In this document: positions 27,767 through 41,738 of the stretch, piece after piece | Numbering within the stretch: the first letter of the stretch is position 1 | Layout of the letters: the number at the start of each line of letters is the position of its first letter | Assembly: GCF_900107665.1 (NCBI RefSeq) | Contig: NZ_FNQT01000007.1 | Location: forward strand, 1 to 64,000 | Direction: 5' to 3' | Source of the DNA: Haloplanus vescus | GTDB taxonomy: Archaea; Halobacteriota; Halobacteria; Halobacteriales; Haloferacaceae | Length of the DNA: 64,000 nucleotides | Position numbers and translations under genes: made by a program | The notes under the pieces: model-generated | Databases searched by the model: none | What the model was told of the DNA's origin: nothing | Seen by the model: the letters and a program-made list of their open reading frames with translations, nothing else

Positions 27767-28369
27767 CTTACTGTTGTTGGCATCTTCCAACTGACGTGTG
27801 TTCACGGACATCGTTGAGTGTATCCTTGTACCTCTCCGACGTTATTCCAAGTAATTCCTATCTCAGGGTTGCTCGTCTAAGTAATGTAGTTAGTTCATCT
27901 CACCTTCGGACTTGACAGGACTGGCCGGGTGGTTGACGCAGATCATCTAGGTTATTCCCTTCTACCGTGATCTCCCCTAGAATGTTATTTATTCTATGTA
28001 TCTCGATAATATCGTGGAAGGGGGACAGTGCTCCTTGTCCAACCCATGGGTTCGCCGTGACGCAGACAGTATCGCCAAGTTTTCGGTTGGCGAAGTTGGC
28101 AGCAATCCAGTCTAGTGAGGAATTCCATGAGAGCGTACTGTCTCGTACGCATCGAAACATTCGGTGTCGGCGACGGCCTTGAACATGTCCGCCCGGCAGG
28201 CGTCGAGTATCAGGAGGTTGTCCCAATCCTGGTCAATCACGTCTACTCCGTCACGGCCGTGGAGTGCCGCGAGCACGGGGCTGACCAATCGCCCTTGGAA
28301 ACGCTCTCGCCACCAGTATCTACCGTTATAATGTTTCACTATTTCTAAAAGTGCGTATGAGGAATTCAT
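27767..28369 (-). pseudogene. broken alkaline-phosphatase-superfamily (sulfatase-like) gene
   Basis: The ATG overlaps the upstream gene's stop (ATGA), so a real coupled gene once began here. The first 70 residues read ...DNLLILDACRADMFKAV, matching the intact paralogue upstream (VLLILDACRWDVF). The frame then shifts near 28135: the next frame continues 'SLDWIAANFANRKLGDTV.VTANP'. After more decay a third stretch 'ITSERYKDTLNDVREHTS' is readable at about 27785-27845. The metal-binding SDHGE region and C-terminus are gone. The left boundary is approximate. Confidence 0.75.
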
Positions 28370-29292
28370 AGGTATCCGAGATCTCGGAGTTTTTTCTCCC
28401 TGGTAGCTCCGATCTCAGTATCTGATCTGAGATCATCTATATTATATTCTCCCGTGTCTCGTCCCGATGTAATCGCCCATGGTACTTTTCGTAGAACCGG
28501 TATCGGAACTCGACTCGGATGTTCATAAATTCCGAATTCTCCGAACGCTTCACCATGGTCTGATGTTATCGCTACTTGATCAGCAGTAATTGCCTGTAGT
28601 AATGTTCTGTGTATGTGATCGATTATATATTCTAAATTATCTGAATACGCAGCAATATGGTCTGATTTAGATATCTCTCCTCTGTTTTGTAAATCAAACG
28701 CATTTTCTGCTTTTTCATTGTTTATCACCGTCCTCGGATTGAATCCGCCCTCTATTGGATTAGTCACGTACGGCCAGTGTGGCTGCATATAGTGGACGAT
28801 CATGCGCTCGTAGTCCCCGGTTCGCCAGTGTTTGACCGCTTGGTTCGTCAACGGCTCTGGAGGGATTGTGCCGAGATCGTCGTCCCAGACGTAGCGCCAC
28901 ACCTCATCGAGGAGTGCAAGTTGATTCTCGGTCACATGGTCCTCCGAGTACGGATTGCCGGTGACGTACGCAGTGGACGCCAGCTTGTCCTTGTATTCGG
29001 TAGTGAACGTCTTATCCATCCACTCCGGAGACGCACTTCCGACGGAGGTAATCGGTTCGACAGTTTCCAACCAATCCGCATCGCCGTAGTTCTCCGAGAA
29101 GACGTCCCATCGACAGGCATCGAGTATGAGGAGCACGTCCCATTCCCGTTCCCAGATTGAATCTCCCGCCGGACCGGGTACGCGCCGTAGCGCCCCTGTC
29201 AGTAGTTCCTGTCCGGACCGTTTGGCCGCGAATCGGGGTGATTGATCACGGAACCGTGACGCGGTCTCCGCGGCCCAGTCGCTGAAACCCAT
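28366..29292 (-). CDS. alkaline-phosphatase-superfamily hydrolase, sulfatase-like
   Basis: A 308-residue protein of the haloarchaeal 'LILDACRxD' branch. The N-terminal metal ligand is in VLLILDACRWDVF. The likely nucleophile region is TSVGSASPEWMD. The second metal site is AITSDHGEAFGEFGIYEHP. It could hydrolyse or transfer sulfate, phosphate or phospho-alcohol groups on a glycan. No signal peptide or membrane anchor is visible, so it probably acts inside the cell. It is the third gene of a same-strand run of four AlkP-family genes. The C-terminus is EKKLRDLGYL, a tail seen in its neighbours too. Lower GC in its first third on the plus-strand side suggests transferred DNA. Confidence 0.8.
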   Translation of the reverse strand: MGFSDWAAETASRFRDQSPRFAAKRSGQELLTGALRRVPGPAGDSIWEREWDVLLILDACRWDVFSENYGDADWLETVEPITSVGSASPEWMDKTFTTEYKDKLASTAYVTGNPYSEDHVTENQLALLDEVWRYVWDDDLGTIPPEPLTNQAVKHWRTGDYERMIVHYMQPHWPYVTNPIEGGFNPRTVINNEKAENAFDLQNRGEISKSDHIAAYSDNLEYIIDHIHRTLLQAITADQVAITSDHGEAFGEFGIYEHPSRVPIPVLRKVPWAITSGRDTGEYNIDDLRSDTEIGATREKKLRDLGYL

Positions 29293-29323
29293 AAGACCCG
29301 TTCAACGCATCCACACTTATGCT

Positions 29324-30664
29324 TCACTCAAGATATCCGAGGTCAGCAAGACGGTCCTCAACTGCCTGATCTGTGTCCGTCGGAACTGTACTGTGGTCCT
29401 CCTCGCGGAGTCGGTCTGGAATCTCCTTTCGGAACGCTCGCACACGGTCGCCGTAGCGGTCAACCACGTTCGACATCTCGTCCGGGTCCGCGTCAAGGTC
29501 GTATAGCTCCCGTTCCTCGCCTGCTTCGATGTACTTCCATCCCTCCCAGCGCCCAGCGACTACTGGCTCCGTATCGCTGAACGACCCAGTCGCAACGACA
29601 CGACGAGAGCTCCCTTCTCCAAGGGGCTGCCCGAGGAATTCTGCCGGAGGCTCAACATTATGAGCCTCACAGATTGTCGGTGATATGTCGAGGAGTTCGC
29701 GCTGGTCTGCTACACTCTCACCGGTCGTCTCCGGTCCACGTACGAGGAGCGGGACGTGAATCAGCTCGTCGTACGGACGATTTCGGTGGAAGTAGTAGCC
29801 GTGCTCGCCGAACTCTTCACCATGATCAGCCGTGAATATAACCTGTGACTCCTCCCATCTGTCCTGTTCTCGAAGTCCATCTGTGAGCCGTCGTATCTGC
29901 TCGGATGTGTAGCGAAGTTCCGAGTCGTAGAGGTCTCGGAGGAGTTCGCGGTCTGACTCGGACAGAGACTTGGGGCTGACACCCGTCCGTGACATCAGGT
30001 CGTGTATCTCGTCGCTGGATAGGTCCTTGTCGCTGTATGCCGGATCGTCGATGTGCATACAGAATGGGCGGTGTGGATCCATGTAATGCACCCACAAGAA
30101 CAGATCACCGTCTACCTCGGCGGCCATCTCCAGCGCCCGATCAGTCGTCCGCTCACCGGTCTCGTACGCTGTCGACTCGTGAATTAGTCGCGATGGGAAG
30201 ATAGTCCGCTGGATTCGCTCGGCGAAATCGCGCACGCCCAGACGCTCGACTGCTGGTCGAACTGTATCCATCGTCCGACGGAATACGCGGTGGGATATCG
30301 AGCGGACTGCCTCCTCCTCGTCACTCCCCGTGACGTCGAAGTCCTCGAAGTGGTCGAACCCCGACGGACGGCCGACGCGTGTAGCGAAGTACGTATTGGA
30401 GTGGACACCGACGGTCGTCACTCCGTCGGGTAGGGCGTCTGCGACAGTCGGCCCTTCCATCGCCGGACGGTCACCGAGGTAGCGGGACGTGAGCATCGAG
30501 GGGAGCGAGATACCGGTATGGGTGCCGTTCGAGAAAGCTTGCTCGTAGCGGTTCGCATCCTCTGCCAGCAGATCATCGAGGATCGGCATCGTCTCGCGGT
30601 GGTAGCCATACTGGCCGAGGTGGTCCGCACGTAGTGCGTCAACCGTGATGAGTATCGTATCCAT
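29324..30664 (-). CDS. sulfatase-family (AlkP superfamily) hydrolase
   Basis: A 446-residue sulfatase-type protein. It has MDTILITVDALRADHLGQYGY (first metal ligands), SLPSMLTSRY at the nucleophile position (serine type, S-x-P-S), FLWVHYMDPHRPF, and TADHGEEFGEHGYYFHRN with the second set of metal ligands. It is complete and all expected ligands are present. Start ATG 30664; a GTG four codons upstream would overlap the previous stop. No export signal, so it is probably cytoplasmic and works on nucleotide- or lipid-linked glycan precursors. C-terminal tail DRLADLGYLE. Confidence 0.87.
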   Translation of the reverse strand: MDTILITVDALRADHLGQYGYHRETMPILDDLLAEDANRYEQAFSNGTHTGISLPSMLTSRYLGDRPAMEGPTVADALPDGVTTVGVHSNTYFATRVGRPSGFDHFEDFDVTGSDEEEAVRSISHRVFRRTMDTVRPAVERLGVRDFAERIQRTIFPSRLIHESTAYETGERTTDRALEMAAEVDGDLFLWVHYMDPHRPFCMHIDDPAYSDKDLSSDEIHDLMSRTGVSPKSLSESDRELLRDLYDSELRYTSEQIRRLTDGLREQDRWEESQVIFTADHGEEFGEHGYYFHRNRPYDELIHVPLLVRGPETTGESVADQRELLDISPTICEAHNVEPPAEFLGQPLGEGSSRRVVATGSFSDTEPVVAGRWEGWKYIEAGEERELYDLDADPDEMSNVVDRYGDRVRAFRKEIPDRLREEDHSTVPTDTDQAVEDRLADLGYLE

Positions 30665-30672
30665 GTCAGCTC

Positions 30673-32049
30673 TCACTCCGTGTATCCCAGCGCACTGAGC
30701 GTCTGTTCCACGGACTCGGTAACCTCTGACTCGGCTGCTTGCGTGACGTTTGCTGGTGATAACGCATCAATCTCGCTCTCGATGGCCGGTGGGATTTCCG
30801 CGTCCAGACAGTAGGCGTCTCGCGGGGTGGGGACGTGTACGGACCACGATTCACTGCCGTTCTGGACGTACTTCCGGACACCGTGTGACTCGTGTGACCC
30901 GTACGCTGCGTCGATTGGATCGCCGTCCTCGAATCCGCCCGCGAAGACGGTTCGGTCGGTGACGAACGAAGGGCCATCGACATCACCGGTCGTTGCTCGC
31001 TCGATGGCGACAGGAGTATCTACGATACCGACTGGCTCGGACACAGTCCGTCCTTTAGATTGTCCTGGCTCTTTCACGACGAGGGGAACGTGTAGGAGTG
31101 GTTCGTCCACGGCGTCGCCGTGACCGATAGAGGGATGGTCGTCGATGGGACTCCGCTCGCCGAACCCCTCGCCGTGGTCTGCGGTAACGACGACGTAGGT
31201 GTTCGATAACTCTCTGTCTTCTTTGAGCGCCGTAAGTATCTGCTCGACGACGGCGTCGGCCTGCCGAATCGTCCCGTCGTAGCGGTCTTCGAGGAGTGCG
31301 AACTTCCACCGTTCGTCGTCGCCGATATTCTCCATATCGGTGCGATTTTGCGCATTCTTCCCGTCAGATGTCGCCCATCTGTCGTACTCCTCACCCGGAC
31401 GGAATGGAACGTGCGTATCCATGAGATTGATACATGCTGCCCACGGACCTTTGCGATCGGTGCGCCACTGCGCAAACCGTTCGGCATACGTGAAACCACG
31501 CGAGAATACGGTGCCTTCAGGTGCGAGCCGGGGGTACCGCCACTTCAGCATCCACGAGACGCCGTTGGCGAGAGATTTGATTGGAGCGTCACTCCGGAGC
31601 GCACGGGTGAGGAATTCTACCTTGTCCAGCGACTCCTCCTCGACGAACGCCGAAGGGGACTCACCGTCCTCGTACAGATCCCTGTCGTTGAAGACGGTCT
31701 CGAAACCAGAGGAGAGCCCTGTATCGAGGTCCGTCAGATAGGGGTTGTCCGTGAACAGCCCGGTGTCGTAGCCATTGTCAGCGAGACGGGCGAACACGTT
31801 CGCTTCGCGCTCGAGTTTGTTCTCAAGGTCGTTGATCCCGTGTTCTTGGGGAAGATAGCCGGAGAAGATGCTGGCGTGGCTCGGGAGACTGCGGCCAGCA
31901 GGCGCGCGGGCCTGCGTGTACGTCGTGGCCGACGACGCGAACTCCTCTAGAAATGGGGTCGTCTCGCGGTGGTAGCCGTGGAGACTCGTGTTTCGGGCCC
32001 GAGCGCTATCCAAGATGAGAAGAAGAACGTTTGGTGGTGTGTCGATCAT
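30673..32049 (-). CDS. sulfatase-family (AlkP superfamily) hydrolase
   Basis: A 458-residue protein, the first gene of the AlkP-family run. It has NVLLLILDSARARNTSLHGY; the usual RAD aspartate is replaced, as RARN. It also has SLPSHASIFSGY at the serine-type nucleophile site, 'INLMDTHVPF' and VVTADHGEGFGERSP. The sequence ends TLSALGYTE. The family can act as sulfatase, phosphatase or phosphoethanolamine/phosphoglycerol transferase; the altered first motif leaves the activity open. Upstream are an AT-rich gap and the membrane-protein gene. Confidence 0.85.
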   Translation of the reverse strand: MIDTPPNVLLLILDSARARNTSLHGYHRETTPFLEEFASSATTYTQARAPAGRSLPSHASIFSGYLPQEHGINDLENKLEREANVFARLADNGYDTGLFTDNPYLTDLDTGLSSGFETVFNDRDLYEDGESPSAFVEEESLDKVEFLTRALRSDAPIKSLANGVSWMLKWRYPRLAPEGTVFSRGFTYAERFAQWRTDRKGPWAACINLMDTHVPFRPGEEYDRWATSDGKNAQNRTDMENIGDDERWKFALLEDRYDGTIRQADAVVEQILTALKEDRELSNTYVVVTADHGEGFGERSPIDDHPSIGHGDAVDEPLLHVPLVVKEPGQSKGRTVSEPVGIVDTPVAIERATTGDVDGPSFVTDRTVFAGGFEDGDPIDAAYGSHESHGVRKYVQNGSESWSVHVPTPRDAYCLDAEIPPAIESEIDALSPANVTQAAESEVTESVEQTLSALGYTE

Positions 32050-33576: not shown

Positions 33577-34221
33577 TCACCGACCGAGCAGTGAGAGCGC
33601 GTCGTTGAGTTTCGTCGCGACGTGGCCGGAGAGGTATCCATCCCTACCCGCGGCCGTGGACTTTCCCGACCGGATCGCTTCGAGAAGCGGCCCTTCACAC
33701 CGAGTTACTGCACGGCCGACCTCCATCGGAAAGTGTGCGTCGCTTCCACCAGTTACGGGCAGGTCGTGTTCGTCGGCGAATACTTCCGCACGGGTGTTGA
33801 ATCTGGTGAGCAGGCACCGTGAGTTCTTGACCTCGACACCGTCCACAGCGTCGGCAATCGCTTCCAAGTCTGCCTGGTACGTCTGTCGGAAAGAGTCGAA
33901 CGGGTGTGCGAGCACTGCCACACCGCTATGGTCGTGCACGAACTGAATAGCATCCAGTGTCTCGGTTCCCACCGGAGGTGTCTCGTCGATTCCTAGGGCC
34001 AGCAGATGGCCCTGTGAAGTTGTGAGTTCGGCACCGACAATGATCTCTAACTCCGGTGGCGCGAGTGTGGCGACATCGACACCGCCCTGCACCGAATCGT
34101 GGTCAGTGACTGCGATACCGTCCAGCCCGGCTGCTACCGCACGGTCGATGATGTCCTCGGGCTCGTTCCGAGAGCACGGGGAGACTCGGGTGTGTACGTG
34201 TATGTCGTATGTTCGCGTCAT
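33577..34221 (-). CDS. PHP-domain phosphoesterase coupled to the UbiA gene
   Basis: A 214-residue single-domain PHP protein with the complete metal-binding set: DIHVHTRVSPCS (HxH), VTDHDSV (DHD), GAELTTSQGH (E and H), AVLAHPFDSF (HP) and GGSDAHF (DxH). PHP enzymes hydrolyse phosphomonoesters or nucleic acids. The start (ATG 34221) overlaps the UbiA-family gene's stop by ATGA, so both are translated from one message. That suggests a phosphorylated prenyl-linked product as substrate, though this is inference. A paralogue lies at 39419-40057. Confidence 0.88.
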   Translation of the reverse strand: MTRTYDIHVHTRVSPCSRNEPEDIIDRAVAAGLDGIAVTDHDSVQGGVDVATLAPPELEIIVGAELTTSQGHLLALGIDETPPVGTETLDAIQFVHDHSGVAVLAHPFDSFRQTYQADLEAIADAVDGVEVKNSRCLLTRFNTRAEVFADEHDLPVTGGSDAHFPMEVGRAVTRCEGPLLEAIRSGKSTAAGRDGYLSGHVATKLNDALSLLGR

Positions 34222-35132
34222 CCGAGCACCCCGACGAACAACTGTCTCAAGTATATCGCTATGAGGATCGCAGCCACCCACAGCGCGAGGTTCACGATGA
34301 ACGAACGATCGAACAGTATCATACGCTCTACGGTCCGCGCCTCATCGTCAAGATAGATCAGGTGATAGAATCGGAAGGTCGCGAAGTACGCGAACGGGAG
34401 GGTCAGCATCATTAACTGATTACCGCCGTTGAACGTGTACAGCGAGTAGGCCATCAGAAGGGTAGAGATAACTACCACGAGGAGCCGGTCGATGACCTGT
34501 ATATCGTAACGCTCCAGACTGGTGCGCGTGTCGTCGGACTCAGGGTGTTTCAGTTCTTGATACCGCTTTCCAAGTCCGAGCAGCAGCGCCGCCAGCAGTG
34601 TGCAGACGATGAGCCACGGACTCGGTAGGCCGACGTCCGTCTGAATCGCATAGACTCCCGCGAGTGCCCTGAGAACGAATCCGATTGCGATAATCAGGAT
34701 ATCCACGAACAGGACATCTTTCAGGCCCAAGTTGTAGAAGACGTTGTTTAAGACGTAAGCTAACAGGATAGCGAGTACGAGGACATCCACGTAGTATCCC
34801 AGCCAAAGGCCCACAACTCCGACAAAGCCACCGAAGATGGTAGCCGTCGGAATCGAGACCGTACCACTAGCGATAGGCCGGTTGCGTTTCTCGGGATGCT
34901 TACGATCCTGTTCCACGTCGCTGATATCGTTGAACACGTACACGGCTCCCGCGACCATTGAGAAGGCGCTGACGGTTAGGAGGGACTGGACGACAGCACT
35001 GACATCGAATAGGCGCCCAGAGAACGTAACACCCAACAGCACCATACTCTGTTTGTACCACTGCCACGGCCGCATCTCCCAGAGAAGTCCCTTAGCCTGC
35101 GACGCAATGCCCCCCGTTTCACTCTGATACAT
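34218..35132 (-). CDS. UbiA-family prenyltransferase, decaprenyl-phosphate phosphoribosyltransferase type
   Basis: A 304-residue membrane protein with about nine helices. The first Asp-rich motif reads NDISDVEQDRKHPEKRNRP, the form typical of decaprenylphosphoryl-5-phosphoribose (DPPR) synthases, which join phosphoribosyl pyrophosphate to a polyprenyl phosphate. The second motif region is YNLGLKDVLFVDILIIA, and the start MYQSETGGIASQAKGLLWEMRPWQW contains the family's RPxQW. The ATG at 35132 is chosen; upstream sequence belongs to the divergent gene. The start lies only 35 bases from that gene. A different prenyl or aromatic acceptor cannot be excluded. Confidence 0.82.
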   Translation of the reverse strand: MYQSETGGIASQAKGLLWEMRPWQWYKQSMVLLGVTFSGRLFDVSAVVQSLLTVSAFSMVAGAVYVFNDISDVEQDRKHPEKRNRPIASGTVSIPTATIFGGFVGVVGLWLGYYVDVLVLAILLAYVLNNVFYNLGLKDVLFVDILIIAIGFVLRALAGVYAIQTDVGLPSPWLIVCTLLAALLLGLGKRYQELKHPESDDTRTSLERYDIQVIDRLLVVVISTLLMAYSLYTFNGGNQLMMLTLPFAYFATFRFYHLIYLDDEARTVERMILFDRSFIVNLALWVAAILIAIYLRQLFVGVLG

Positions 35133-35167: not shown

Positions 35168-36532
35168 ATGTTGACCGGTCGGGGTCTCCGAGGGCTAAAA
35201 CGGGGGCTGAGCGACGACCCATGGCGACTAGCCCTCATCGCGGCGACGATTTCGGTGTTCGCTATATCGATGGTTCGGACGGCTCTGTTTTCGCCGACAC
35301 TCATCAACTACGACGGTGCGTTCTACGCTCACGCCGGCTGGTATACGACAAAAGGAGCAATCCCGTACGTCACGTTCTGGGACGTGAAGCCACCGCTGGT
35401 GTTCGAGTGGACGGCGTTGCTCGCGTTCTTCGCGTTCGACAATATGTTATTATTGCACGCGTACCACGTCGCGACCACAAGCGCTGTCGCGGCAGGTTCG
35501 GTGCTCCTCGTCGGTTACCTGACGACGGAGTTGACCGAGAGCAGCCTCGCAGGGTTCTGTGCTGGTGCCGTGTTGCTAGCCTATCCTGGTTTCCACTACC
35601 TAGCAGCCCACGGCTTCCGGCCGAAATACTTCACCCTGTTCTTCGGGCTGGCAGCCCTCTACCTCCATTACTCGGGACAGTCGCTGGCGAGCGGAGTAGC
35701 CGCCGCAGCCGCGGCAGGATTCTGGCAGTTCGGAGCCGTCTTCCCGGTAGTCGTGCTCGGATTGGAGTACCAACGGACGCGAACCGTACCGGTACGGGCC
35801 CTGACCGGGATGGCAGCGACCACGCTCGTCGTCGTCACACCGTTCGTTTTCTGGGGGGCCATCGAGCCGATGTTCGTTGAGGTCGTCGTTGCCCCGTTCC
35901 TGCTCTCAGAGACCTTTGAGCCGTTCGTTCGACTGTGGAAAGGCTTTCGCTTCCTAGGGTACCTCATCCCGATAGTGTTAATCGGGGCGGCCGGTATCGT
36001 CGGAACCCTGCGAAACGAGTTTGACACACGGTGGTGGGTGTTCGTCGTTGGCACGTGGTACGGGCTTCAGATATTCTACTTCGATTTGGATGGTTTCCCA
36101 GACCTGTTCCTCGGTGTCGCTATCGTCGGTATCGGGTTCGGGCTCATCGTCGCCGAAGTCTCTCTGCCGACCCAGCGTGGCATCGTTGCTGTGGTGGTGA
36201 CTGTCTTATTCATCAGCGGCGTATTCCTCGGTGGGATTGGCCTCGTCGCAGAGCCGCTTACTACGACAGAAGACGGAGTAACGTACGGTGATAAGTCGGT
36301 GGCGACCGACGCATTAGGCGACGTGGGAAAATGGCTTTTCGGCCCAGTTGGCTCGGGCAGCGAGGCCGAGAGCGCAGCAGGAGCGGGCCCAACGAACCTG
36401 TACGACCCTCCCGACGCCCGGAGCCTGTACTGGAATCAGCATCGACCATGCCACTACTTTATTGGGACTATGGGTGCTAATTGGATCAAACAAACTGACG
36501 GTCGCTACGTTGAGATGTCCTGCTACGAATGA
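35168..36532 (+). CDS. GT-C-type membrane glycosyltransferase (GT39/GT83-like)
   Basis: A 454-residue protein with about ten to eleven transmembrane helices. The first extracellular loop contains INYDGAFYAHAGW, where the Asp fits the catalytic/metal position of GT-C enzymes, followed by FWDVKPPLVFEW. Such enzymes move a sugar from a polyprenyl-phosphate-linked donor to a glycan or protein on the outer face of the membrane. The soluble C-terminal tail (about residues 385-454) ends with two cysteines (RPCHYF, MSCYE). The stop overlaps the next gene's start (ATGA). It is divergent from the UbiA-family gene that could make its donor. Confidence 0.82.
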   Translation: MLTGRGLRGLKRGLSDDPWRLALIAATISVFAISMVRTALFSPTLINYDGAFYAHAGWYTTKGAIPYVTFWDVKPPLVFEWTALLAFFAFDNMLLLHAYHVATTSAVAAGSVLLVGYLTTELTESSLAGFCAGAVLLAYPGFHYLAAHGFRPKYFTLFFGLAALYLHYSGQSLASGVAAAAAAGFWQFGAVFPVVVLGLEYQRTRTVPVRALTGMAATTLVVVTPFVFWGAIEPMFVEVVVAPFLLSETFEPFVRLWKGFRFLGYLIPIVLIGAAGIVGTLRNEFDTRWWVFVVGTWYGLQIFYFDLDGFPDLFLGVAIVGIGFGLIVAEVSLPTQRGIVAVVVTVLFISGVFLGGIGLVAEPLTTTEDGVTYGDKSVATDALGDVGKWLFGPVGSGSEAESAAGAGPTNLYDPPDARSLYWNQHRPCHYFIGTMGANWIKQTDGRYVEMSCYE

Positions 36533-37521
36533 GCAGGCGTATTAAAATCGGCAAAATAGCTCTCCGATACGGCTTCACGCTAATCGTCGTCGGAATCGCA
36601 TTTTATTATCTGATCCAGGAATTCGACATTCAGAGCGCGTTTGACACGTTACGCCGTGCCGACCCGTTGCTGTTCGCGGCGGCGATGCTGGCGTTCTACG
36701 TCTCGTTTCCCCTCCGCACCGAAAGATGGCGCTGGTTCCTCTCGGCCATCGACGTGGAAGCAGGACGACTCTCGGCGAACCTCATCCTCCTCGTCGGTTA
36801 CTACCTGAACACACTCGTTCCAGCTAAACTGGGGGACATCTACCGGAGTTACTTGGCAGCGGGCCGCTACGACGATCGGGTGTCCAGTATCGCAGGAACG
36901 ATTGCCGCTGAGCGAATCATCGACCTGTGCCTCTTGGCGGTCGGGCTCGTCTTCGCCTTGCCCATCGTCTTGACGCGGCGAACCGAATTCGTATCACGCG
37001 TGACGACCTGGGCAGTCGTGTTGCTGGTCGTTGTCGGAGTCGGGACCGTAGCTCTGCTCCGGTTCGATGTCATTCCACTTCCGGAGCGTATGAACTCGGC
37101 AGTCACGAGTTTCCGTCGTGGCCTCAGAGCGGCTAGCGGGCGTTCGCTCGGTGATCGCGTCTCCATCATGGCTCTCAGCGTCTCCGTGTGGAGCACGAAC
37201 ATCATCAGAACGGCGCTCGTCGCTGCCGCACTCGGCATTAACCTCTCGTTAGCCGAAATCACGCTCTTAGCGCTGCTAGTCGCCTTCTTATCGGGACTCC
37301 CGTGGGTGCCGGCGGGCATCGGTCTCGTTGAAGTGATCAGCACGAGCGTTCTCCTGAGCCTTGGTCTGTCGGCCGAAAGTGCACTTGCGTTGATACTGCT
37401 CGACAGAACAATCACGGTCGTCACGCTCGTCCTGCTTGGGACGCCGATATACGTGCTCGTTCTTCACTTCGACCAGTCGAAGCTGTCGGGAACCGTGGTG
37501 GCCGATGAGAAAACTCAGTAG
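36529..37521 (+). CDS. AglD-like / lysylphosphatidylglycerol-synthase-type membrane protein
   Basis: A 330-residue protein with about eight helices and the UPF0104 landmarks FPLRTERWRWFL, LVGYYLNTLVPAKLGDIYRSYL, 'AGTIAAERIIDL' and 'GLPWVPAGIGLVE'. The family includes the membrane half of AglD and is annotated as flippase-like. It is coupled to the GT-C gene by an ATGA overlap, so it may help present or flip the lipid-linked sugar. It converges on an AlkP-superfamily gene, one base between stops. Confidence 0.87.
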   Translation: MSRRIKIGKIALRYGFTLIVVGIAFYYLIQEFDIQSAFDTLRRADPLLFAAAMLAFYVSFPLRTERWRWFLSAIDVEAGRLSANLILLVGYYLNTLVPAKLGDIYRSYLAAGRYDDRVSSIAGTIAAERIIDLCLLAVGLVFALPIVLTRRTEFVSRVTTWAVVLLVVVGVGTVALLRFDVIPLPERMNSAVTSFRRGLRAASGRSLGDRVSIMALSVSVWSTNIIRTALVAAALGINLSLAEITLLALLVAFLSGLPWVPAGIGLVEVISTSVLLSLGLSAESALALILLDRTITVVTLVLLGTPIYVLVLHFDQSKLSGTVVADEKTQ

Positions 37522-37522
37522 T

Positions 37523-39088
37523 TCAGTTCGCGTACCCGAGACTCTCTAGTTGGGACCGCAGTTCTTCACGTTCCTCGTCGGTTATGTCGTCACCGCGACG
37601 CTCGAACTCAAGATCGAACTCTCTGAACGTTGGTTCGGAAGCCTCTTCGAACAGTTCTAACACGTCGCCGTCGAGACACGTCGGTATGTCTTCTGACATC
37701 GCGTACATCAACGTCGGAAGAACGTCCTCGAGCGACGGTTCGGAAAGTGCAGCGTCGGCATCGATACCTGACCCGGTCGCGAAGAACACACCCTTCTGCT
37801 TGTGCTCTGCATCGCGACCGATTATATGATCGGTGAGGACCTGGTCCGTAGCGAGAGCGAACCCGCGGGCGGTAAGGTAGCGGTAATCGGGTGTCTCGAT
37901 CATGAGGTCCGGCGCAAGGTCGATGGCGTCACCATCGAAATGCTCGGACGCACGGTGGACATTGGCGATGATGTATTCGCCGTCGACAGTGTAGTCGAGC
38001 AGCCCTTCTACGAGTGCATCGGTCCGATTGTCGTCCTCCACGAAAATCTGTCCGTAGTTCCCTCGGGAGAAGCAGGCACTACGGTCGGTATCGATGTCGT
38101 GTGTCCCGATCAACAACGCGTTTCGGAGCCCGGACAGCAGTTTTGCCTTCGATGACTCGTCGTCGAAACCGACGGACATCAGCCGCTCTCCCAGGCCTAG
38201 TAACGAAGCGACCCGATACGCGTTCAGCATATTGAGGCCCGCCTTTGAGAGCGTGTCGCGCATCTTCGTGCCGAGGCCGCTCTTCAGTTCGAGGAAGCCG
38301 AGGTCACGGAGGACGTTGTTGAGGAACAGCGTCTTGTCCACCGGACCGAACCCGTGGTCGCTGAGTATGATGAGCAGGTACTCCTCATCCATCGCCTCCA
38401 ATCGCTGGCGAGTCTCTCGTAGTACGCGATCAGCTTCTTGATAGATATCGTGCAGTTCCGGGTCGTCCCACGCGACGTGGGCGATGTCGTCGGTCTGTTT
38501 GAACACAGTGACCAGGAGGTCCCACTCTTTCTCGTCGAGTGCGTGGTTGTGAAACCGTTCGATGGCGTCGAACTGTCTGAACTGGTCTTCGATGAAATCC
38601 TCGCGGTTCGTGCCGTCGAAGTGTACCTTCGCGTGCATCTCACCTGGATCGACTGGGGACGTCTCTTCCAGTTCGGGGGGCCAGAATGACTGCTCGCGAT
38701 GCGGTGTAGGGTAGCCACTCACCGCGAACCCGTCGAACTCGTCAACGGGGTAGGTCACGGGCATCCCGACAACACCGACGCGTTTGCCGACGGCGTTGAG
38801 ATAGTCCCACATCGCCGGGGCTTGTCGCGTGTTCGACGTCGTGAGATCGAACTCCGCGGAGTCGGGTGCCGAACGAGAGATGAAGTCGTACACCCCGTGC
38901 TTTCCTGGGTTCACCCCAGTGAGAAACGAGCTCCACGCCATCGCCGATATCGGAATCACCGTTGAGTCCAGTTGCGAGTAGAGTCCGTCCCCGCGGAGAT
39001 CTTCGAAGCCGGGCATCTTCCCCTCTGACTCAAGTCGGTCGAGCAACGTCGGCTCAACGCCATCGAATCCTAGTACGACCGTCTTCAT
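37523..39088 (-). CDS. AlkP-superfamily nucleotide pyrophosphatase/phosphodiesterase-type protein
   Basis: A 521-residue soluble protein. MKTVVLGFDGVEPTLLDRL carries the first metal Asp. The nucleophile site is 'PISAMAWSSFLTGVNPGKHGVYDF'. 'VFKQTDDIAHVAWDD' and 'IILSDHGFGPVD' provide the remaining ligands. This is the type I phosphodiesterase/nucleotide pyrophosphatase branch, whose members often handle nucleotide- or lipid-diphospho compounds. ATG 39088 is chosen at the first beta strand; a longer frame begins 19 codons upstream. The C-terminus LESLGYAN echoes the tail of the sulfatase-like proteins. Confidence 0.87.
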   Translation of the reverse strand: MKTVVLGFDGVEPTLLDRLESEGKMPGFEDLRGDGLYSQLDSTVIPISAMAWSSFLTGVNPGKHGVYDFISRSAPDSAEFDLTTSNTRQAPAMWDYLNAVGKRVGVVGMPVTYPVDEFDGFAVSGYPTPHREQSFWPPELEETSPVDPGEMHAKVHFDGTNREDFIEDQFRQFDAIERFHNHALDEKEWDLLVTVFKQTDDIAHVAWDDPELHDIYQEADRVLRETRQRLEAMDEEYLLIILSDHGFGPVDKTLFLNNVLRDLGFLELKSGLGTKMRDTLSKAGLNMLNAYRVASLLGLGERLMSVGFDDESSKAKLLSGLRNALLIGTHDIDTDRSACFSRGNYGQIFVEDDNRTDALVEGLLDYTVDGEYIIANVHRASEHFDGDAIDLAPDLMIETPDYRYLTARGFALATDQVLTDHIIGRDAEHKQKGVFFATGSGIDADAALSEPSLEDVLPTLMYAMSEDIPTCLDGDVLELFEEASEPTFREFDLEFERRGDDITDEEREELRSQLESLGYAN

Positions 39089-39112
39089 TTGTCTGTCTGG
39101 AGAGTAAGAGTC

Positions 39113-39119
39113 TATATAA
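39113..39119 (-). promoter_or_regulatory. TATA element for the AlkP-superfamily gene
   Basis: 'tatataa', read on the minus strand as TTATATA, lies 25-31 bases upstream of the ATG at 39088. This is leaderless spacing. Confidence 0.6.
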
Positions 39120-39406
39120 TCCTTGTTACGCACTTCTCCTCGCAAACATCGGTAGTCCCCATCACGTCAGGCAGTAGTCATGATAGCCGTGATTAGATTC
39201 TCAGAGAACGCCCCGCTCGTTTTTTCAGGGGCGACCCGTCCGTGACTCAAGAAACATAGATGCCATACAGACACTTGATATCGGCGTGTGAAATAGATTG
39301 GTGCGAAATAATGCTAGAGTCTGCCGATTACTGTCAGGGGTGCGGATAACTCCTAGCTCCGGCCCGAACCTATCGCTGTCCTCTATAACGTGCCGGAGGT
39401 AGCGTT

Positions 39407-39418: not shown

Positions 39419-40057
39419 ATGAGGCGCTACGATCTGCAGGTACACACCGACGCGTCCCCCTGTTCCAGAGCCGCACCGGAAGAGATAGTTACTGCTGCCA
39501 TCGAAGCGGGCCTCGATGGCGTCGCGATTACCAATCACGATACGCTTGACGGCTACGCGGAAGTGGTTGCTCAGGCTCCTGAACGACTGGATATAATTCC
39601 CGGTGTCGAAGTGACGACGACGCAAGGACATATGCTCGCTCTCGGTGTGTCGACGGTCCCGCCGCAAGCCGACCCCTGTGCCGTTATCGACCACATTCAC
39701 GAGCAGGGTGGTGTCGCTGTTCTCTCACATCCGTTTGATACCTTCCGCGAGTCCTACATTGATTCACTTGACGAGATCGGCGATAAGGTGGACGCCGTCG
39801 AGGTGACGAATTCCCGGTGTATTCTCCCACGCTTCAATCGACGCGCTCGGGAGTTTGCTGACCGTCGTGGACTCTCCGTCACTGGTGGAAGCGATGCACA
39901 CTTCGCGATGGAAGTGGGACGCGCTGTCACCGAGTGTAGTGGCCCGGTTCTCGACGCGATTCAAGCGGACGAGACGCAGGCTGGCGGTCGGGGTGGTTAT
40001 CTGTCCGGTCATGTCGCGACGAAATTGAACGACGCACTCGCAGTACTGAACGTATGA
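39419..40057 (+). CDS. PHP-domain phosphoesterase (paralogue)
   Basis: A 212-residue PHP protein closely similar to the one at 33577-34221, including the shared ending GGYLSGHVATKLNDAL. All metal motifs are kept: DLQVHTDASPCS (the first position is Q-V-H, with the aligned HxH partly altered), ITNHDTL, GVEVTTTQGH, AVLSHPFDTF and GGSDAHF. The first motif reads LQVH instead of IHVH, so one metal ligand may be changed. The stop overlaps the start of the AglD-like pseudogene (ATGA), so its partner is a membrane protein too. Confidence 0.87.
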   Translation: MRRYDLQVHTDASPCSRAAPEEIVTAAIEAGLDGVAITNHDTLDGYAEVVAQAPERLDIIPGVEVTTTQGHMLALGVSTVPPQADPCAVIDHIHEQGGVAVLSHPFDTFRESYIDSLDEIGDKVDAVEVTNSRCILPRFNRRAREFADRRGLSVTGGSDAHFAMEVGRAVTECSGPVLDAIQADETQAGGRGGYLSGHVATKLNDALAVLNV

Positions 40058-41015
40058 CCGGCTATCTCGCCGCTATCCGGCGTGCGGTTCGGTCACACGG
40101 CCTCTGGCTGACCGCGCTCCTGACAGTTGCGGTGTTTCTGGGGCTGTTCGCGTTCGGACAAGCGGCCGCAGTCGCAGACGCAATCGCCTCGCTCCACCCG
40201 TGGCGGATAGGTGCCGTCTTCGGACTCGTGGCTATGAGCTACGCTATCAGGTTCTTGAAATGGGAGTTCTATCTTCGAACGCTCGGAATTGACGTCCCAC
40301 CCCGCCGGAGCTTCGTCGTCTTCGTCAGTGGACTTATGATGGTCGTAACCCCCGGCAAGGCAGGCGTGGTGTGGAAGGCGTGGTTCCTGCGAGATCTGGA
40401 GAGCATCCCGGTCAGCCGTACTGCACCCATTGTCGGAGCGGAACGCGTCACCGATTTGTTAGCGCTCGCCACGTTTGCGCTCCTCGGGCTAGTCGTGTTC
40501 CAGCAATCGTCCACAGCTGTCGTCGTCGTGACGGCAGTATTCGTCTCTGGGCTAGTACTTCTTCAGTGGTAGACGTTAGCACTCCACCTTCTGCAGGCCT
40601 TGGAGCGGATACCGGTTATCAGTGATTATGCCGACGAGCTAGAGGAGTTCTACCAGAATGCGTACACGCCCTTCCGTCCTCAACCACTCGTCGCAGCAAT
40701 GATCATCAGCCTCCTCGCGTGGGGCCTAGAAGGAGTGGCACTTTGGTCGTTCTGGGCGGATTCAGCCCCAGAGCGTCGTTGCTCTCGGCTCTGTTCGTGT
40801 TCGGACTTGGATCGGTCATCGGTGCTGCGAGTTTACTTCCAGGGGGATTGGCCGCTGCCGAGGCGAGCATGGTCAGCACACTCGTCATTCTCGGCTACTC
40901 ACGAACCATCGCAGTCAGTTCCACGCTGGTCATCCGCGTCGGTACGCTATGGTTCGGTGCAGTAATCGGGACGCTAGTGTTCCTGTCCTATCGGGCGTAC
41001 CGTCGACGCAGTTAG
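40054..41015 (+). pseudogene. AglD-like (UPF0104) membrane protein gene, broken by a stop and a frameshift
   Basis: The first 172 codons read as a normal UPF0104 protein (YAIRFLKWEFYL, 'VVTPGKAGVVWKAWFL', 'VGAERVTDLLAL'). An in-frame TAG at 40570-40572 interrupts it. The same frame continues sensibly (LERIPVISDYADELEEF... up to LEGVA). Near 40740 the frame shifts by one, and the third stretch (LGGFSPRASLLSALFVFG...'SLLPGGLAAAEASM') ends at 41015 with YRRRS. All three parts together make a full-length family member. The gene is probably inactive. Confidence 0.85.
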
Positions 41016-41680
41016 AGCTCTCCGTCTCGATAGGCCCTCGCCACACGGTAAGCCGGCTGTGCGAGAATCAGTGCGGAAGCGAGCGATGCCCCGACCAGAA
41101 AGAGGACCCCAGTCCCTGAGATTGCCCCCAATGCAAAGCGATGTATAGACTGTCCGAGCAGAACGTAGAACAGGGCCCACGGCAGTTCACCCAGTAATGT
41201 CCCGATCGCGAAGGTCGTCGTCGAAACTCCGGCGACACCCGCAGTGTACGACACTGCATCCGCCGGCGCAGGCGATATCCGCGCTGCGATCATTCCGCGT
41301 ACCTCCCCGGTTGTGTCGGCGACGGCAGCGCCTCGTTCAGCGAAGTGAGCGAAGTAATCTGATCGTTCTCGGAAGTGCGTCGCCACGATGTACGGCGGAT
41401 AACTGGTGAACAACGTGCCGCACAGGGCAACGAGCAATCCTGCCGGAACACCGTACATGTAGCCGACGAACACCGAAAACGGACTAAGCGGCCACAGCAG
41501 AAATGGTCGTACGAGGTATAGCACGAATATCACGACGAGAATGGTGGTCCAGTGGTGGTGTCTCGACTGGATAGTATCCAGCAGCTGTGTCGGTGAGGTC
41601 CATAGACCGACCGCTCCGAGAAGAATCAGGAGAGTGAACGCGAGGAGCGCAAAGAGGGGTTGTCGGGAGAACGGCGACAT
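41012..41680 (-). CDS. TVP38/TMEM64 (DedA-like) family membrane protein
   Basis: A 222-residue protein with about six hydrophobic segments and the VTT-domain landmarks FLLWPLSPFSVFVGYMYG near residue 70 and 'ISPAPADAVSYTAGVAGVSTTTFAIGTLLGELPWALFYVLLG'. The family helps maintain membranes and scramble lipids in other organisms. ATG 41680 (MSPFSRQPLF) is preferred to a TTG ten codons upstream. It converges on the AglD-like pseudogene with a four-base overlap. Confidence 0.87.
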   Translation of the reverse strand: MSPFSRQPLFALLAFTLLILLGAVGLWTSPTQLLDTIQSRHHHWTTILVVIFVLYLVRPFLLWPLSPFSVFVGYMYGVPAGLLVALCGTLFTSYPPYIVATHFRERSDYFAHFAERGAAVADTTGEVRGMIAARISPAPADAVSYTAGVAGVSTTTFAIGTLLGELPWALFYVLLGQSIHRFALGAISGTGVLFLVGASLASALILAQPAYRVARAYRDGEL

Positions 41681-41738
41681 CAGTAGTAATTCCGACGTGA
41701 CGCTATTCAACGTTGTGTGACACCGGAAGCCACGGGAG

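Follow-up and report, generated by a model that had tools for sequence, protein, structure and literature searches.

A UbiA-PHP gene pair of Haloplanus vescus and a predicted archaeal route to lipid-linked pentofuranose

This study analyzed a stretch of 64,000 nucleotides from Haloplanus vescus (contig NZ_FNQT01000007.1, positions 1 to 64,000; hereafter the window), in which the gene of a UbiA-family prenyltransferase overlaps that of a PHP phosphoesterase (PHP1). The two proteins probably catalyze the opening steps of an archaeal pathway to lipid-linked pentofuranose, a counterpart of the bacterial three-component pathway. UbiA would make a polyprenyl-phosphate-phosphoribose, and PHP, at the cytoplasmic face, would take off its 5'-phosphate. 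An extended short-chain dehydrogenase/reductase (SDR) would, in most relatives, epimerize ribofuranose in place; outward flipping of the lipid-sugar would fall to an AglD/MprF-type LPG_synthase_TM protein, and transfer of the pentose to a surface glycan to a GT-C glycosyltransferase. What was directly observed is the families to which the proteins belong, the conservation of their active sites, a gene order that does not vary, co-occurrence and the replacement of the phosphatase and the flippase in their slots elsewhere; from this we infer all of the enzymatic steps as well as the nature of the pentose and of the acceptor.

Results

The UbiA gene (34218..35132, minus strand) encodes 304 amino acids from an ATG at 35132; a second in-frame ATG lies further upstream at 35222. 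The first-pass annotation had recognized in this protein the motif of a decaprenylphosphoryl-phosphoribose (DPPR) synthase, and the results revealed that the motif, NDISDVEQDRKHPEKRNRPIASG, is present. The protein matched the Pfam UbiA family (E 4e-30), its top NCBIfam model was decaprenyl-phosphate phosphoribosyltransferase (NF008977; E 2e-63, 214 bits), and its closest solved structure was that of M. tuberculosis Rv3806c (8j8j, E 2e-25). The remaining UbiA-function models scored below 50 bits, except for PRK08238 (153 bits), which we take to be a HAD-UbiA fusion family.

Twelve residues of Rv3806c contact phosphoribosyl pyrophosphate (PRPP), namely R22, K28, Y70, N73, D77, K87, R90, Q135, Y138, K143, Y157, and K208 (PMC10994848). 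We aligned 25 UbiA sequences, including that of the window (two of the entries, L030 and L047, are one and the same locus). The window protein and all 24 others kept nine of the twelve residues (R22, K28, Y70, N73, D77, K87, R90, Y138, and K143; Rv3806c numbering) unchanged. Q135 and Y157 were conservatively replaced throughout the set by N and F, respectively, and K208 was not kept, being T in the window protein. UbiA might instead be a different prenyltransferase, for lipids, quinones or carotenoids, and PHP unrelated to it, given that the superfamily is broad and the NDxxD motif common to it. Such a role is highly improbable: the DPPR-synthase model far outscored those of the other functions (PRK08238 excepted), the PRPP-site residues were conserved in all 25 sequences, and three of the four further UbiA genes in the genome matched heme o synthase, menaquinone and PRK12875 prenyltransferase models. 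On these grounds, together with the matches of the relatives, an ordinary prenyltransferase role was rejected.

PHP1 (33577..34221, minus strand; 214 amino acids) is the predicted 5'-phosphatase of a lipid-linked ribose-5-phosphate. Its gene is complete, and its overlap with UbiA comprises four nucleotides, ATGA, read as ...ggATGAcg..., as had been noted earlier. Pfam assigned it the domains PF02811 and PHP_C (PF13263). The folds nearest to its structure model (predicted local distance difference test score 94.8) were PHP phosphoesterases, among them RNase AM and 2yb1, the latter solved with adenosine monophosphate (AMP) and phosphate bound. The metal ligands are H8, H10, H41, E65, H106, D161, and H163, and by domain, fold and ligands PHP1 belongs to the PHP superfamily. 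Among 33 PHP sequences, H10, H41, E65, H106, D161, and H163 were kept wherever present; the first His of the HxH motif (position 8) is His in PHP1 and the non-haloarchaeal proteins and Gln in PHP2, a second PHP of the window described below, and the remaining haloarchaeal cassette PHPs. On the CehA/McbA metallohydrolase model NF038032 (cut-off 80 bits), PHP1 scored 78.6, PHP2 77.2, and the orthologue of locus L040 85.2 bits. The fold and metal-binding motifs are like those of known PHP phosphoesterases (CehA/McbA type, RNase AM, and AMP-bound 2yb1), whereas the cassette PHP is short, is tied to UbiA, carries Gln for the first His in most haloarchaeal members and has a predicted lipid-linked substrate. 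A single contig search with the PHP protein found one close relative, in Halalkalicoccus. Bacterial UbiA near HD and PHP phosphoesterases has been described in another context, in a passage that describes no such cassette (PMC12419801).

We further analyzed the neighborhood of UbiA in other genomes. UbiA was patchy, occurring in 22 of 242 sampled haloarchaeal genomes. In all 23 other haloarchaeal loci examined (21 genomes), UbiA, PHP and LPG_synthase_TM follow one another in this order on one strand, with a UbiA-PHP spacing of -25 to +60 nucleotides (-4 in 13 loci) when start codons are chosen by rule. An extended SDR with a GalE-like fold and GxxGxxG/YxxxK motifs is near UbiA in each of these loci, one copy being disrupted. 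Cassette-type PHP, scoring at least 315 bits, was found in all 22 UbiA-bearing haloarchaeal genomes and in none of 20 UbiA-free ones, in which the best PHP scored below 170 bits. In a fresh draw searched by SDR alone, UbiA adjoined PHP in each of the seven new SDR-bearing genomes, and two SDR-free genomes of the genus of the window had neither UbiA nor PHP of the cassette. Distances in the UbiA and PHP trees were correlated (r = 0.94), a figure that partly expresses shared organismal history. Chance adjacency was rejected on the invariant haloarchaeal gene order, the co-occurrence and the SDR-picked sample; the pairing of UbiA and PHP is not due to chance.

The search for this adjacency in other archaea, proposed in the first-pass annotation, also gave a positive result beyond the haloarchaea. 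In eight of 16 non-haloarchaeal loci of the same phylum, UbiA and PHP share a gene row, in most cases together with LPG_synthase_TM, and in some of them one or two genes separate UbiA from PHP; several of the other loci amount to no more than UbiA fragments or contig ends. Five non-haloarchaeal loci (L095, L099, L100, L101, and L103) have in common a DUF362 protein next to the UbiA cassette.

The predicted UbiA product would have to be freed of its 5'-phosphate. Other families occupy the same positions elsewhere. In bacterial neighborhoods, sampled from plasmids only, UbiA is followed by HAD and then GtrA in Lactococcus (L122), and PAP2 takes the position after UbiA in Marivivens. An archaeal metagenome-assembled genome (L102), for which bacterial contamination is possible, has UbiA, a HAD-GtrA fusion and an SDR 50-55% identical to most haloarchaeal ones. 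The row logic of synthase, phosphatase and flippase in L122 and L102 is that of the haloarchaeal cassette, but HAD and GtrA stand there in place of PHP and LPG_synthase_TM. Because HAD with GtrA, PAP2 or a HAD-GtrA fusion holds these positions elsewhere, PHP can be assigned to the phosphatase slot and LPG_synthase_TM to the flippase slot; a flippase role in archaeal glycosylation has been proposed for LPG_synthase_TM proteins (PMC5898192). In Streptomyces and Nonomuraea, a relative of the cassette SDR immediately precedes UbiA. At L124 and L125, on rhizobial plasmids, cassette-SDR relatives adjoin an SMR transporter, and approximately 5 kb away lies a long UbiA-family protein; a possible product of this set is a pentose donor for nodulation-related glycans.

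The substrate of a PHP protein cannot be read from its sequence, and the superfamily spans nucleases, histidinol phosphatases and cyclic-phosphate diesterases. UbiA could therefore make polyprenyl-phosphate-ribose-5-phosphate while PHP serves another function, such as carrier recycling or the release of a phosphodiester, and removal of the 5'-phosphate falls to a separate HAD or PAP2 phosphatase. We consider this unlikely, as the cassette-type PHP is always beside UbiA in haloarchaea, is absent where UbiA is absent and sits in the slot held elsewhere by HAD or PAP2 phosphatases. The earlier proposal that PHP is an alternative to the mycobacterial phosphatase in polyprenyl-phosphate-phosphoribose chemistry appears to be the best-supported reading, as suggested by active-site residues, gene order, co-occurrence and the HAD and PAP2 proteins in its slot.

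Divergent from UbiA, with 35 nucleotides between the two starts as first annotated, lies a GT-C gene of the PF15971 family (dolichyl-phosphate-mannose mannosyltransferase family; 35168..36532, plus strand; Pfam E 1e-35), whose product is a candidate pentosyltransferase. Its suggested role as user of the donor is plausible, eight other loci (L039, L044, and L048-L053) having related GT-C genes next to the SDR, but the GT-C family varies between cassettes, being PF15971 or PMT_2. The GT-C gene is overlapped by LPG1 (36529..37521, plus strand), an intact AglD/MprF-type LPG_synthase_TM gene by Pfam. LPG1 was rejected as the orthologue of the cassette flippase and lies outside the cassette subfamily (40 bits versus at least 450).

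Approximately 4 kb beyond the UbiA start, the window carries further genes, of which PHP2 and LPG2 had not been noted before. PHP2 (39419..40057, plus strand), a second cassette-type PHP 58% identical to PHP1, overlaps LPG2 (40054..41015, plus strand), a cassette-type LPG_synthase_TM flippase gene broken by an in-frame stop and a frameshift. Convergent to LPG2 is a gene whose profile matches indicate a UptA-like VTT/DedA-domain protein (41012..41710, minus strand). A VTT/DedA gene convergent to the cassette flippase occurs in seven loci (the window, L038, L040, L041, L043, L045, and L046), and its product may take part in polyprenyl-phosphate recycling. The order PHP2-LPG2-VTT is that of the standard cassette in six relatives. 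These three genes are probably a relic of a standard cassette without its UbiA and SDR, and UbiA-PHP1 is best read as part of a second, diverged cassette, which GT-C and LPG1 could complete; LPG1 could also substitute for the broken flippase. The copy in the window is rearranged and partly broken.

All these genes lie in a low-GC stretch at 24-44 kb (GC 56-59%, versus 64-72% around it), which also carries sulfatase-fold, flippase and glycosyltransferase-like genes. Its segments 28366-32049 and 37523-39145 hold three sulfatase-like open reading frames, of which Pfam confirmed two, together with a type I phosphodiesterase.

We further investigated the spread of the cassette on mobile elements. 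Four haloarchaeal plasmids carry UbiA, PHP and SDR genes. In addition, five genes listed without interpretation in the recently acquired prophage 2 of Halanaeroarchaeum M27-SA2 (HLASA_2008-2012; PMC4866403) match the LPG-PHP-UbiA-SDR cassette, which suggests surface conversion by a virus. Viral contigs yielded no cassette, just a UbiA fragment and distant PHPs, and PHROGs matches of ten proteins around five cassette loci included no virion genes.

Discussion

Several findings weigh against the proposed pathway or against its operation in H. vescus. The enzyme roles are predictions from sequence and gene context. The score of the window UbiA on NF008977 is under the curated cut-off of 234 bits, which the relatives L051 (244), L097 (267), and L102 (252) pass and L040 (225) and L045 (227) likewise do not reach, and the protein sits on a long branch of the tree. 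The cassette SDR was not found anywhere in the genome of the window, and the cassette flippase LPG2 is broken. The metal site of PHP varies, since Gln takes the place of the first His of HxH in the haloarchaeal cassette proteins other than PHP1. A weaker point is that the literature searched gave no report of a pentose in S-layer glycans of haloarchaea.

The pathway may exist as proposed and the copy in the window be a relic in decay, with little product or none, a possibility that we hold tentatively and regard as somewhat short of even. The disrupted LPG2, the missing SDR, the long-branched UbiA below its NCBIfam cut-off and the split and partly duplicated cassette all speak for decay; UbiA, PHP1, PHP2, GT-C and LPG1, however, are intact reading frames, UbiA keeps the conserved PRPP-site residues like its relatives, and PHP1 has a canonical HxH. 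Because the genome has no cassette SDR, the product of the window, if made, would be plain, un-epimerized ribofuranose, as in Citrobacter O1.

The closest parallels to the pathway proposed here are the bacterial three-component pentofuranose systems of Citrobacter youngae O1 and O2 (Kelly et al. 2024, PMC11127046). In these, mutants and nuclear magnetic resonance demonstrated that the fused HAD domain of ORF15 removes the 5'-phosphate and that an SDR turns ribofuranose into xylofuranose; O1 has lost its SDR (PMC11127046). Both systems share a UbiA-type polyprenyl phosphoribose synthase, a phosphatase, a flippase, a GT-C enzyme and a GalE-type SDR. The phosphatase candidate here, however, is PHP instead of a HAD domain, the flippase is LPG_synthase_TM instead of MATE, the GT-C matches PF15971 or PMT_2, and the host is archaeal; the transferase of the bacterial systems is of family GT136. 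The SDR epimerase, which is optional and sets the pentose, is missing in the window, whereas each of the 23 other haloarchaeal loci has it, in one case as a disrupted copy.

The mycobacterial decaprenylphosphoryl-arabinose pathway (Rv3806c, Rv3807c, DprE1/DprE2, and Rv3789) has mostly the same PRPP-binding residues and likewise a separate phosphatase gene, but PHP replaces the mycobacterial phosphatase here, a single SDR is present and the flippase belongs to another family. The DprE1-type ALO domain (PF04030) was found in one of the 22 cassette genomes and was absent from that of the window, with a positive Corynebacterium control. Because this domain is so nearly absent, the mycobacterial route of epimerization is unlikely, and DprE1/DprE2 were rejected for this step.

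The lipid-linked pentose route put forward in the first-pass annotation is supported in outline but was incomplete, lacking the LPG_synthase_TM flippase-type partner, the SDR epimerase of the relatives and the rearranged, partly broken state of the copy in the window. No description of the cassette as a pathway, or of an archaeal route to lipid-linked pentofuranose, was found in the literature searched, subscription papers and preprints lying outside its scope. The logic is already known from the bacterial pentofuranose systems, and the new part is the use of different phosphatase and flippase families.

On balance, it appears that archaea possess a separate, mobile pathway for a pentofuranose donor, borne by islands, by plasmids and by at least one prophage. 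In it, PHP would have been recruited independently as one more phosphatase for polyprenyl-phosphate-ribose-5-phosphate, next to PAP2 and HAD; the donor would be flipped by an AglD/MprF-type protein, and one SDR would stand in for DprE1/DprE2. The analysis predicts an archaeal route to lipid-linked pentofuranose and, with it, functions for a PHP subfamily that was an orphan and for a single branch of LPG_synthase_TM proteins. In this route, one slot would be filled by unrelated phosphatases (PAP2, HAD, and PHP) and the flippase slot likewise by unrelated proteins. If the pathway is indeed mobile in this manner, the cassette may alter the surface of its host much as phage gtr clusters do.
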